This document shows, one piece after another, positions 48,246 to 51,464 of a stretch of 64,000 nt of DNA; positions within the stretch are counted from its first letter, which is position 1; the number at the start of each line of letters is the position of its first letter. Origin of the DNA: Nitrospirae bacterium GWB2_47_37 (lineage in GTDB: Bacteria; Nitrospirota; Thermodesulfovibrionia; Thermodesulfovibrionales; Dissulfurispiraceae); assembly GCA_001803635.1 (NCBI GenBank), contig MHDU01000074.1, positions 62,001 through 126,000 on the forward strand, read 5' to 3'. A program made the position numbers and the translations under genes. The notes beneath the pieces were generated by a model. It saw only the letters and a list, made by a program, of their open reading frames with translations, had not been told where the DNA came from and searched no databases.

Positions 48246-49385
48246 ATGAGGTATTACCTTTCAGATAGATTCATTTTAAAACTGCTTGAAACTCCAACTG
48301 TTTACGATATAAGGAACGACGAGCTTTATGATCTCGACGATGACGCGTTTGAATTTTTGAAAAAGTGCGCGGGTAATGAAGGATGCGGGGAAGAGGGCGC
48401 GGATAAGGAATTTATCGGGTATTGTCTTTCGGAAGGGATACTCGCAAAAGAGCCTGTTAATGTTAAAAGGCCGTTTATCATCAAATCGCCTGTTCCATCA
48501 TTGCGGTATCTCGAACTCCAGATAACCGATAAATGCAATCTCAAATGCAGGCATTGTTATATAGGCAAACCCCTTAACAACGAACTTTCCGTAGGCGAAA
48601 TAAAGGCGTTACTGAATGAGTTTGAAGAGATGCAGGGACTCCGCCTTCTTATAACCGGAGGCGAGCCTTTAATGCACAGCCGGTTTGAAGAGATCAATTC
48701 ATTGCTGCCGGAATACAATTTCAGGAAAATACTATTTACAAACGGCTTGTTGTTGACCGACAACCTTCTCGAAAATTTACACGCGGATGAAATCCAATTC
48801 AGCGTTGACGGCATGGAACACGGACACGAGGCTGTTAGGGGGAAAGGGACATATGAAATTGTTATGCGAAAGGTCAGGGAAGCGATAGACAAAGGTATTG
48901 CGGTATCCATAGCCACAATGATCCACGGGGAGGATCTTGGAGAATTCGAGGAGATGGACGGCCTGTTCAGAAAGATCGGCATCAAAGACTGGACTGTCGA
49001 TGCGCCCTGCGTATCCGGCAATTTGAGAGATAACCCTATTTTTCAGGTTGCGCCTGAGGTCGCGGGGAAATATCTGAATTACGGCTTCGGGGACGGCCTG
49101 CACGGCGGAGGCGAGGGGTTCGCGTGCGGACTGCATCTTATGTCCGTGCTCGCAAACGGCTACGCGGCCAAATGCGCTTTTTATTCCCGAACGCCGGCAG
49201 GAAATATAGAAGAGGGATTAAGTGCGTTATGGGGAAAAATAAGGCCGATAAGGCTTAACGAACTGGAATGTTTCAGTTCATCGTGTCAATTCATAGACGC
49301 ATGCAGGGGCGGGTGCAGGTTCAGGGCGGAAGGCATTTATGGAAAAGACTTTTACAGATGTCATGCCTATGATATAATTAAATAA
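48246..49385 (+). CDS. Radical SAM/SPASM peptide-modifying enzyme with PqqD-like N-terminus
   Basis: 379 residues. The N-terminal region (about 1-75: FILKLLETPTVYDIRNDELYDLDDDAFEFLKK) resembles a PqqD/RRE fold that binds peptide leaders. The radical SAM core has CNLKCRHCYIG and GGEP. The SPASM region has seven or more Cys (CGLHL, KCAFYS, ECFSSSCQFIDACRGGCRFRA, RCHAY), binding auxiliary clusters. It is followed within 50 nt by a 20-residue Cys-containing peptide gene, its likely substrate. The architecture matches RiPP maturases; the exact subfamily (a geopeptide-like type is possible) needs a search. Confidence 0.85.
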   Translation: MRYYLSDRFILKLLETPTVYDIRNDELYDLDDDAFEFLKKCAGNEGCGEEGADKEFIGYCLSEGILAKEPVNVKRPFIIKSPVPSLRYLELQITDKCNLKCRHCYIGKPLNNELSVGEIKALLNEFEEMQGLRLLITGGEPLMHSRFEEINSLLPEYNFRKILFTNGLLLTDNLLENLHADEIQFSVDGMEHGHEAVRGKGTYEIVMRKVREAIDKGIAVSIATMIHGEDLGEFEEMDGLFRKIGIKDWTVDAPCVSGNLRDNPIFQVAPEVAGKYLNYGFGDGLHGGGEGFACGLHLMSVLANGYAAKCAFYSRTPAGNIEEGLSALWGKIRPIRLNELECFSSSCQFIDACRGGCRFRAEGIYGKDFYRCHAYDIIK

Positions 49386-49434
49386 AGAAACGGCAATGAA
49401 GTCCGTTTAACTCCAAGAAAGGGAGGTGTTTGAC

Positions 49435-49497
49435 ATGGTAATAAAGAAGGTCTCCAAGAAGGGTGCAACAACCTGCAAATGCAAAGGCTCCTGTTAA
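49435..49497 (+). CDS. Putative RiPP precursor peptide, 20 residues
   Basis: ATG to TAA encodes a basic N-terminal half (MVIKKVSKKG) and a C-terminal core ATTCKCKGSC with three Cys. A strong GGAGGTG lies 7 nt before the ATG. It follows the radical SAM enzyme by 49 nt in the same direction. Such small Cys-ending peptides next to a SPASM enzyme with RRE are typical ribosomally made, modified peptides. The modification (thioether link is most likely) is inferred. Confidence 0.75.
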   Translation: MVIKKVSKKGATTCKCKGSC

Positions 49498-49730: not shown

Positions 49731-51464
49731 ATGTCTTTTAAAAATTTAATCGTCATAATTTGCGTATTTACCTTTACGGTTTCGTGTTCGGCTGCATCGA
49801 AGGAGCCTGATGAGATAATCGACGTCGTATCTCCGGTAAAAGCCGATAACCTTCAATATTCCGATAAGGCATATTTCGAATATCTGCTCGGATACGAATC
49901 CGAGATAACCGGCAAATGGGAAAACGCCTTAAGGCATTATTCCAATGCCCTTGCCTTTGATCCCGCGTCGGCGCATATCAAGACCCAGATAAGCTACATG
50001 CAGGTCAGGCTCGGAAAGATTCAGGAAGCGTTGAAAACACTGGAAGGCGTCGTTGTTGCTCATCCCGATCATGTGCCCGCCCTCATGCTGTTAGGCGAGA
50101 TATACAACTCGCAGAAGAGACCGGACGATGCGATAAGGATATACGAGAATGTCCTGAAATTGGCTCCGGAAAAGAACGAAGCGGTAATATTCTTAGGTGT
50201 CCTGCATGCCGCGAAAGGGGATTTCCAAAAGGCGATAGATACATTCGAAGGCATCTTAAAAAAGGATCCTGAAAATGTGATGGCGATGTATTACATAGGC
50301 TCCATCAAAATGGAAGAAAAGGATTATGAAAAGGCCGAGGAAAGGTTTAAAAAAATTATAGAGGTCCATCCCTCTTTCGATGCGGCTTATGCAAATCTCG
50401 GGCTTATAAGCGAAACGAGGGGCGACCTGAAGGCTGCGGAAGAGTATTATAAAAAGGTTCTTATCATTAATCCTCACAATCTCTTTGTGAGGGAAAGGCT
50501 TACGCAGTTATACCTTACCGAAAAGTCTTTTGAAAAGGCCATCAAGGAACTCGAAGGGATTTCAAAGAAGATGCCTAAGAATATAGACATTCACCAGAGG
50601 CTCGGGCTTTTATACCTTCAGGAGAAGAAGTACGATAAGGCGGTTTCCGAGTTCAGGATGGTTCTTGAGGCGCGGCCCGACGATATCGCGTCGAGATATT
50701 ATCTTTCCCTCGCGCTCGCGGAGGCAAAGCGCTACGACGAGGCTTTGGGAGAATTGAAAAAAATAATATCGGCCGATCCTAAGAATATTAATGCCTTTTT
50801 GAACCTTGCCTTGATCTACGCGAGGCAGAACCGGTACGCGGATGCCGTCAAGATATACGAGGAGATACTGAGTTTCGAAAAAGGGAAGGCCGAGATATAC
50901 GTTTACCTTGGGAACGCGCATATACAGATGAAACAATACGGGAAGGCGGAGACGGTATTAAAGGAAGGACTGAAGCTCTTCAGCGACAGCGACGAGTTGA
51001 ATTTTACCGTTGCCGTTGTGTACGAGAAGACCGGAAGGCCCGACGATATGTTTTCTCACCTGAAGCGGACCGTTGAAATTAACCCCAACCATGCCGACGG
51101 ACTGAATTATTTGGGGTACAGTTACGCCGATAGGGGGATAAACCTGCAGGAGGCGTTAGGGCTCATTAAAAAGGCGCTTGAATTAAAGCCCGACAGCGGA
51201 TACATAATCGACAGCCTCGGGTGGGTATATTTCAAGCTCGGCAAAATTGAAGACGCGTTAACGACACTTAAAAGGGCGCTCGAATTCGTTAAGGACGATC
51301 CCGTTCTCCATGAACATATCGGGGATGTATACGAGTCCCTCGGAAAATACGATGACGCGGTTAAGGCATGGACGGATGCCCTGAAGTTTCAAGAAAAGGA
51401 AGACGGGTTAAAGAGCAGGGTCGAGAAGAAGATTCAAAATTTAAAATTAAAAATTCAAAATTAA
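49731..51464 (+). CDS. TPR-repeat lipoprotein
   Basis: 577 residues. The signal peptide ends in a lipobox (TVSC, Cys19). The rest is about 14 tetratricopeptide repeats (e.g. AEEYYKKVLIINPHNLFVRERLTQLYLTEKSFEKAI). It is probably a periplasmic or outer-membrane scaffold; no specific partner is visible. The last residues (KIQNLKLKIQN) come from an A/T-rich repeat tract (51430-51464) often seen at gene ends and not part of the TPR fold. Confidence 0.85.
   Translation: MSFKNLIVIICVFTFTVSCSAASKEPDEIIDVVSPVKADNLQYSDKAYFEYLLGYESEITGKWENALRHYSNALAFDPASAHIKTQISYMQVRLGKIQEALKTLEGVVVAHPDHVPALMLLGEIYNSQKRPDDAIRIYENVLKLAPEKNEAVIFLGVLHAAKGDFQKAIDTFEGILKKDPENVMAMYYIGSIKMEEKDYEKAEERFKKIIEVHPSFDAAYANLGLISETRGDLKAAEEYYKKVLIINPHNLFVRERLTQLYLTEKSFEKAIKELEGISKKMPKNIDIHQRLGLLYLQEKKYDKAVSEFRMVLEARPDDIASRYYLSLALAEAKRYDEALGELKKIISADPKNINAFLNLALIYARQNRYADAVKIYEEILSFEKGKAEIYVYLGNAHIQMKQYGKAETVLKEGLKLFSDSDELNFTVAVVYEKTGRPDDMFSHLKRTVEINPNHADGLNYLGYSYADRGINLQEALGLIKKALELKPDSGYIIDSLGWVYFKLGKIEDALTTLKRALEFVKDDPVLHEHIGDVYESLGKYDDAVKAWTDALKFQEKEDGLKSRVEKKIQNLKLKIQN

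Follow-up and report, generated by a model that had tools for sequence, protein, structure and literature searches.

The locus analyzed here raises the question of whether a very short open reading frame behind a radical SAM/SPASM enzyme gene encodes a genuine peptide and, if so, whether this peptide is the substrate of the enzyme. The window, a stretch of 64,000 nucleotides, harbors the enzyme gene at positions 48246..49385 of the forward strand (379 amino acids; Pfam Radical_SAM, E 5.8e-22; SkfB-like fold). After 49 nt it is followed on the same strand by the peptide gene (49435..49497), whose 20-residue product is MVIKKVSKKGATTCKCKGSC. The ribosome-binding site GGGAGGTG (49421..49428, forward strand) is positioned 6 nt upstream of the ATG. 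An earlier note, made from the sequence alone, had described both reading frames and their spacing, a strong ribosome-binding site and the lack of an adjacent peptidase or transporter, and the window agrees with it on each of these points. The upstream neighbor is a GH3 glycosidase gene on the opposite strand. Downstream, a TPR protein gene (49731..51464, forward strand) is followed by ispE, a tRNA-Gln and prs, with ispE and prs read from sequence; no peptidase or transporter gene adjoins the pair among these neighbors. The TPR gene marks an ancestral position and is not proposed as a member of the system.

The peptide was analyzed in 176 genomes of the order Thermodesulfovibrionales, placed by NCBI in the phylum Nitrospirota. 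A degenerate DNA pattern for the peptide end matched in 109 of the 176 genomes and its reversed control in none, which excludes chance. Of the other 67 genomes, 16 gave matches to a looser pattern, and 15 of these were counted as carrying the peptide; the matches dropped were that of G006 and one in each of G131 and G132, all with a core ending in Cys-Cys. One genus uses the variant core TCKCHSSC, read in four genomes, and three matches with three mismatches (two in G037, one in G042) were left out of the search for it. Altogether, 127 distinct gene-plus-upstream sequences encode 108 distinct peptides, each 19 or 20 residues long; among the copies read with start codons, that of L186 is cut by a contig end. 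In a wider scan of contigs with exact peptide patterns, 80 loci were among the matches listed, and a longer peptide pattern gave no match in viral contigs. Queries of 20 residues are close to the limit of profile methods, and at E<=10 all 24 peptides searched against Pfam and NCBIfam gave no match to a family model.

Two parts of the peptide can be distinguished. The basic, leader-like residues 1-12 (49435..49470, forward strand) follow the motif MxI[K/R]KV..K, with Ile3 in 125 of 127 sequences and Lys5 in 124 (Arg in the others). The core, residues 13-20 (49471..49494, forward strand), reads TCKCKGSC in the window and is near-invariant across copies as TCKC[K/H]xSC. Its Cys, Lys/His and Ser positions are partly fixed by the search pattern; Thr13, present in 124 of 127 sequences, lies outside it, as do Ile3 and Lys5. 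The ratio pN/pS is 0.38 for the leader and 0.06 (0.061) for the core, the latter being biased because the copies were selected by a core pattern and the former being free of this bias. The share of the search pattern in fixing these core positions is bounded by the looser patterns and by the finding that the peptide was missed in three of 119 enzyme genomes. A G-rich ribosome-binding site is retained upstream of most copies. The short open reading frame encodes a real peptide, and this peptide is under constraint at the protein level. The reading frame, the conservation of which in relatives the earlier note had made decisive for its proposal, is conserved.

As judged from its sequence, the enzyme belongs to the radical SAM/SPASM superfamily. 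The CX3CX2C motif (C97, C101, C104; 48534..48557, forward strand) occurs in all 107 relatives, and the seven cysteines of the SPASM region (C294, C310, C342, C347, C353, C357, C372; 49125..49361, forward strand) are found in 106-107 of the 107. A possible eighth SPASM cysteine, C255, is present in 82 of these relatives, and His286 is invariant in an alignment of 73 sequences. The Pfam SPASM model matched weakly, in six of the 73 members. Since seven cysteines are kept and the eighth is not strictly so, an open AuxI site would be allowed, as reported for thioether-forming maturases in the excerpted text of PMC10452713. According to the same excerpt, three-Cys AuxI sites of ranthipeptide maturases can take part in substrate binding (PMC10452713). 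The clusters alone do not settle the substrate, because AhbD, a heme synthase, likewise carries two auxiliary clusters, as described in that source (PMC10452713).

The HMM search against radical SAM subfamilies that the earlier note had proposed as a check was run. All scores were far below the cut-offs, and by this comparison the enzyme fits no curated NCBIfam family. Its best score was 82.5 bits against a cut-off of 650, and for NirJ1, AhbC/D, MftC, ScmE and WgkB it reached 72 to 82.5 bits, below cut-offs of 265 to 650. By number of members matched, WgkB (70/73), ScmE (63/73) and GeoRSP (15/73) are among the nearest curated models. The nearest solved protein by sequence is SkfB (E 4.2e-14), with lower matches to CteB (1.5e-06), PqqE (1.2e-04) and also SuiB. 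A first fold model, built from six sequences, was poor (pLDDT 43.7); a second, from 38 sequences, reached a pLDDT of 66.8 and is usable for the core only. With this second model, Foldseek placed SkfB on top (E 1.4e-15). VIA-align gave Z 23.0 for SkfB (rmsd 4.5, 285 residues aligned), 22.4 for SuiB (rmsd 4.2, 274 aligned) and about 21 for viperins; as rows within 1 of each other count as tied, SkfB and SuiB are tied.

The earlier note had read the N-terminal part of the enzyme as a PqqD-like domain, a label that is interpretive. Residues 1-80 (48246..48485, forward strand) are predicted in both models, at low pLDDT, to have the strand-strand-strand-helix-helix order of a RiPP recognition element (RRE), and this order fits the claim. 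Support at the level of sequence was not obtained: the Pfam PqqD model matched none of 73 enzymes, and hhalign of residues 1-80 against 30 PqqD stretches gave a probability of 1.9%, like that of a control domain. An N-terminal RRE is common to SkfB, CteB and SuiB, according to the part of PMC6231123 that treats these enzymes. The domain may thus be designated a possible RRE on the basis of its predicted fold.

The association between enzyme and peptide extends well beyond the window. In the larger set of loci (L191 and up), the peptide gene is located directly downstream of the enzyme gene in 60 loci, with a median gap of 43 nt. When repeated genomes are counted, it is adjacent in 86 of 131 loci and lacking there in 40, and five loci have too little flank. 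In family f10, the peptide gene precedes TPR-ispE-prs as in the window and the enzyme gene lies elsewhere; in family f2, the enzyme gene occupies this position and the peptide gene lies elsewhere. Of 91 enzyme loci, 22 have the TPR gene as the open reading frame that directly follows the enzyme, and of 43 unlinked peptide loci, 19 have it directly behind the peptide. This suggests an ancestral order enzyme-peptide-TPR-ispE, which would have been broken up in different ways with both partners kept. That both were retained in f10 and f2 after moving apart speaks most strongly for a tie between them, and the tie looks functional.

At E<=1e-30 the enzyme was detected in 119 of the 176 genomes of the order. 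Both partners occur in 116 genomes, the enzyme only in three, the peptide only in 12 and neither in 45. Stratified by family, the association has a p value of about 1e-19, which overstates independence even within families because the genomes are related. Superoxide dismutase, used as a control and present in 113 of the 176 genomes, is weakly associated with the enzyme (p 0.04). The earlier note had staked its proposal on homologous enzymes having a small Cys peptide downstream, and the figures of 116 of 119 enzyme genomes with the peptide and 60 loci with direct adjacency answer this point. They tie a precursor gene to an enzyme of the modifying type, as is the case for RiPPs. A substrate relationship is opposed by G039, G168 and G173, in which the enzyme is present and the peptide was not found, and by the near-complete genomes G097 and G138, which contain the peptide and lack the enzyme. 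Many of the other peptide-only genomes are incomplete, and G148 retains only ends of the enzyme gene at a contig edge.

Enzyme and peptide also occur together in other classes of the phylum. From 261 genomes outside the order, 79 were tested for the enzyme, namely all 16 genomes of the phylum sample with the peptide pattern, G205 and 62 others spread over genera. The enzyme was found in 21 of the 79, among them all 16 pattern-positive genomes. Of the five enzyme genomes without the pattern, G195 carries a variant peptide (L305); in the other four the peptide was not found, partly because contigs end there.

A promoter-like sequence TTTACA-N16-TATAAT with an extended -10 element, matching 11 of 12 consensus bases, is located at 49351..49378 of the forward strand, within the 3' end of the enzyme gene. 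Similar sites precede the peptide gene in 72 of 115 loci, compared with 3.4% of shuffles and none in a control stretch 275-400 nt upstream. They were also found in 17 of 39 unlinked peptide copies, which provide the cleaner evidence because part of TTTACA overlaps conserved enzyme codons. The peptide gene thus probably has its own promoter, as predicted from these sites, and its transcript would start about 50 nt upstream. A short separate message of this kind would probably yield more peptide than enzyme, as is expected of a substrate. In several families an element resembling CCCTATGAAAGGGAGGTG lies upstream of the peptide ATG (e.g. L160-L174, L228-L238, and 49400-49428 in the window). Sequences like CCCTATGAAAGGGAGG in several families had suggested a conserved hairpin around the ribosome-binding site, but folding of 124 sequences gave no support for it (mean z -0.47, 24% below -1).

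The explanation favored here is that the 20-residue peptide is a dedicated substrate of the enzyme, which modifies it, probably for use within the cell. As a whole, this explanation is assigned a probability of about 0.65. Its first part, the substrate relationship, is very probable. The reading of the locus as a RiPP locus in the earlier note gains support from the co-inheritance of peptide and enzyme, the conserved frame and a structure comparison that puts RiPP maturases first; the modification itself is inferred. The enzyme would dock on the basic leader MxI[K/R]KV..K and abstract hydrogen from the core T-C-K-C-[K/H]-x-S-C. The result might be one or several thioether links at Cys, each with a mass shift of -2 Da. 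This chemistry is favored because a SkfB/CteB-like enzyme is combined with a Cys-rich core, and it is proposed tentatively, by analogy to those enzymes; oxidation of the C-terminal Cys or another crosslink are possible alternatives. The product would work inside the cell that makes it, with a cofactor-like or metal/redox function, and not as a bacteriocin. Such an intracellular role is probable, since the core is near-constant over the phylum, the gene is usually present in a single copy per genome and no exporter gene is adjacent in the window.

The best candidate for a partner of enzyme and peptide is a protein of about 110 amino acids with seven invariant cysteines, for which Pfam, NCBIfam and PDB gave no convincing match. 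The copy in the genome of the window is located at G000:C50:17213-17533 (L308). This 7-Cys protein occurs in 118 of the 176 genomes, and within families its presence is correlated with that of the enzyme (p ~2e-13). Among 39 genomes measured, chosen from the 118 for carrying the enzyme and the 7-Cys gene on one contig, the two genes are arranged head-to-head at less than 500 nt in 32, which represent five families. The 7-Cys gene adjoins the enzyme gene in L257, L259, L265 and L289, and its product is fused to a cupin-like domain in L262 and L263.

Frequent neighbors in families f3, f9, f11, f12 and f25 encode rubrerythrin-like proteins, superoxide dismutase and a DsrC-like protein according to Pfam, and a 2-oxoacid:ferredoxin oxidoreductase and a nitroreductase as read from sequence. 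As annotated, these genes fit a redox setting. In at least 23 genomes of four families (e.g. L246, L247, L259, L261-L265; G128:C5:337660-338511), no more than 3 kb separates superoxide dismutase from enzyme or peptide; this number is a lower bound because distances were measured for 24 hand-picked genomes. Despite this proximity, a link to oxidative stress via superoxide dismutase was rejected, as its presence is barely correlated with that of the enzyme. It is conceivable, though somewhat doubtful, that the system represents a further ribosomal cofactor pathway beside PQQ and mycofactocin, in which a precursor of 19-20 residues would yield an intracellular redox or metal cofactor and the 7-Cys protein would serve as carrier, maturation partner or client.

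Alternatively, the unmodified peptide could be a tiny metallothionein-like metal carrier, with the enzyme making or using something else in the same metal/redox pathway. The CxC-x3-C spacing of three cysteines and the basic charge are suited to this role, redox genes are frequent among the neighbors, and the co-occurring 7-Cys gene follows a gene read as cutA in 12 of 20 loci examined (f1, f10, f13). However, the peptide gene adjoins that of a radical SAM enzyme whose nearest solved relatives modify peptides, and the conserved leader-like half is unneeded for metal binding. A metal carrier is therefore an unlikely explanation. Rather less likely is a secreted RiPP, i.e. a bacteriocin or signal that is exported and trimmed by proteins encoded elsewhere. 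SkfB and CteB, the nearest solved enzymes, make such peptides, but a core that is almost constant across the phylum and usually encoded once per genome is at odds with this function. In addition, no transporter or peptidase gene is adjacent in the window, and none was seen among the frequent neighbor clusters inspected elsewhere.

It is improbable that the enzyme acts on tetrapyrroles, like NirJ or AhbD, or on another small molecule and that the peptide is a passenger or regulator. At E<=1e-20, the models for NirJ, NirJ1 and AhbD pick up 58, 55 and 53 of 73 members, respectively, on a par with models for peptide maturases, and the two auxiliary clusters of AhbD point in the same direction. Against this, the window enzyme scores far below the cut-offs, its best solved matches are RiPP maturases, and co-retention of the unlinked genes speaks against a passenger. 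A regulatory leader peptide, i.e. a cysteine-codon attenuator of the downstream gene, would be short, Cys-rich, preceded by a strong ribosome-binding site and located upstream of the TPR gene as in many loci, but this reading is highly improbable. The downstream gene varies between families; in 14 genomes of f12, superoxide dismutase was measured as the next gene, at a distance of 68-119 nt from the peptide, and its annotation is on the other strand. Conservation is not limited to the Cys codons, since synonymous codons preserve Ile, Lys, Thr and Ser as well, and no terminator-like site was found.

Modification of a dedicated substrate invites comparison with known systems. The sporulation killing factor maturase SkfB, which forms sactipeptides, is the best solved match in sequence and fold and likewise has an N-terminal domain, and many members of the present enzyme family share its C-x-C pair. 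SkfB differs in having a Twitch domain with one auxiliary cluster, according to the excerpt of PMC6231123, whereas seven SPASM cysteines are found here. Moreover, the substrate proposed here comprises 19-20 residues and hardly varies, and it has neither an exporter gene nor an immunity gene beside it. The ranthipeptide maturase CteB, which acts in the SCIFF system, is also a RiPP maturase with a SPASM domain; its AuxI cluster has three Cys and an open site, as stated in the part of PMC10452713 concerned, which is possible in this enzyme. CteB differs in its lower sequence match. SCIFF precursors are about 45 amino acids long and contain six Cys.

The pairs PqqE/PqqA and MftC/MftA also combine a radical SAM/SPASM enzyme with a constant intracellular product, as presumed for the present pair, and the precursors PqqA and MftA are very short. 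PqqE and MftC act on Glu/Tyr and Val/Tyr, respectively. The core described here is rich in Cys and Lys and lacks these residue pairs, and the enzyme represents a separate family, with the weak match to PqqE given above and 74.5 bits against a cut-off of 265 for the MftC model. WgkB and ScmE, which are among the nearest curated models together with GeoRSP, are likewise far below cut-off for the window enzyme (82.2 vs 650 and 77 vs 400 bits). In the literature searched, no description was found of TCKCKGSC or of a Nitrospirota radical SAM/SPASM RiPP system. The locus thus appears to represent a RiPP-type system built on a radical SAM enzyme, in which the precursor is unusually short and near-invariant, and no family model covers either enzyme or peptide. 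Gene finders readily overlook precursors of this size, yet this one has been kept across much of an anaerobe-rich phylum, and its near-constant core suggests a basic intracellular role. Enzyme and putative substrate form a defined pair that is open to direct testing, and the co-occurring 7-Cys protein adds a second new family.

Additional copies of the peptide gene were noticed at two loci. In L185 (G148:C26), the 3' end of the enzyme gene and the peptide gene are tandemly repeated, giving two peptide copies, one of which is located behind a short enzyme remnant. In L188 (G170:C228), a second, degenerate peptide-like open reading frame about 2.3 kb downstream of the peptide gene starts with VKIEKIIKKMATTCKCEVSC and continues into a longer frame; it may be a decayed duplicate.
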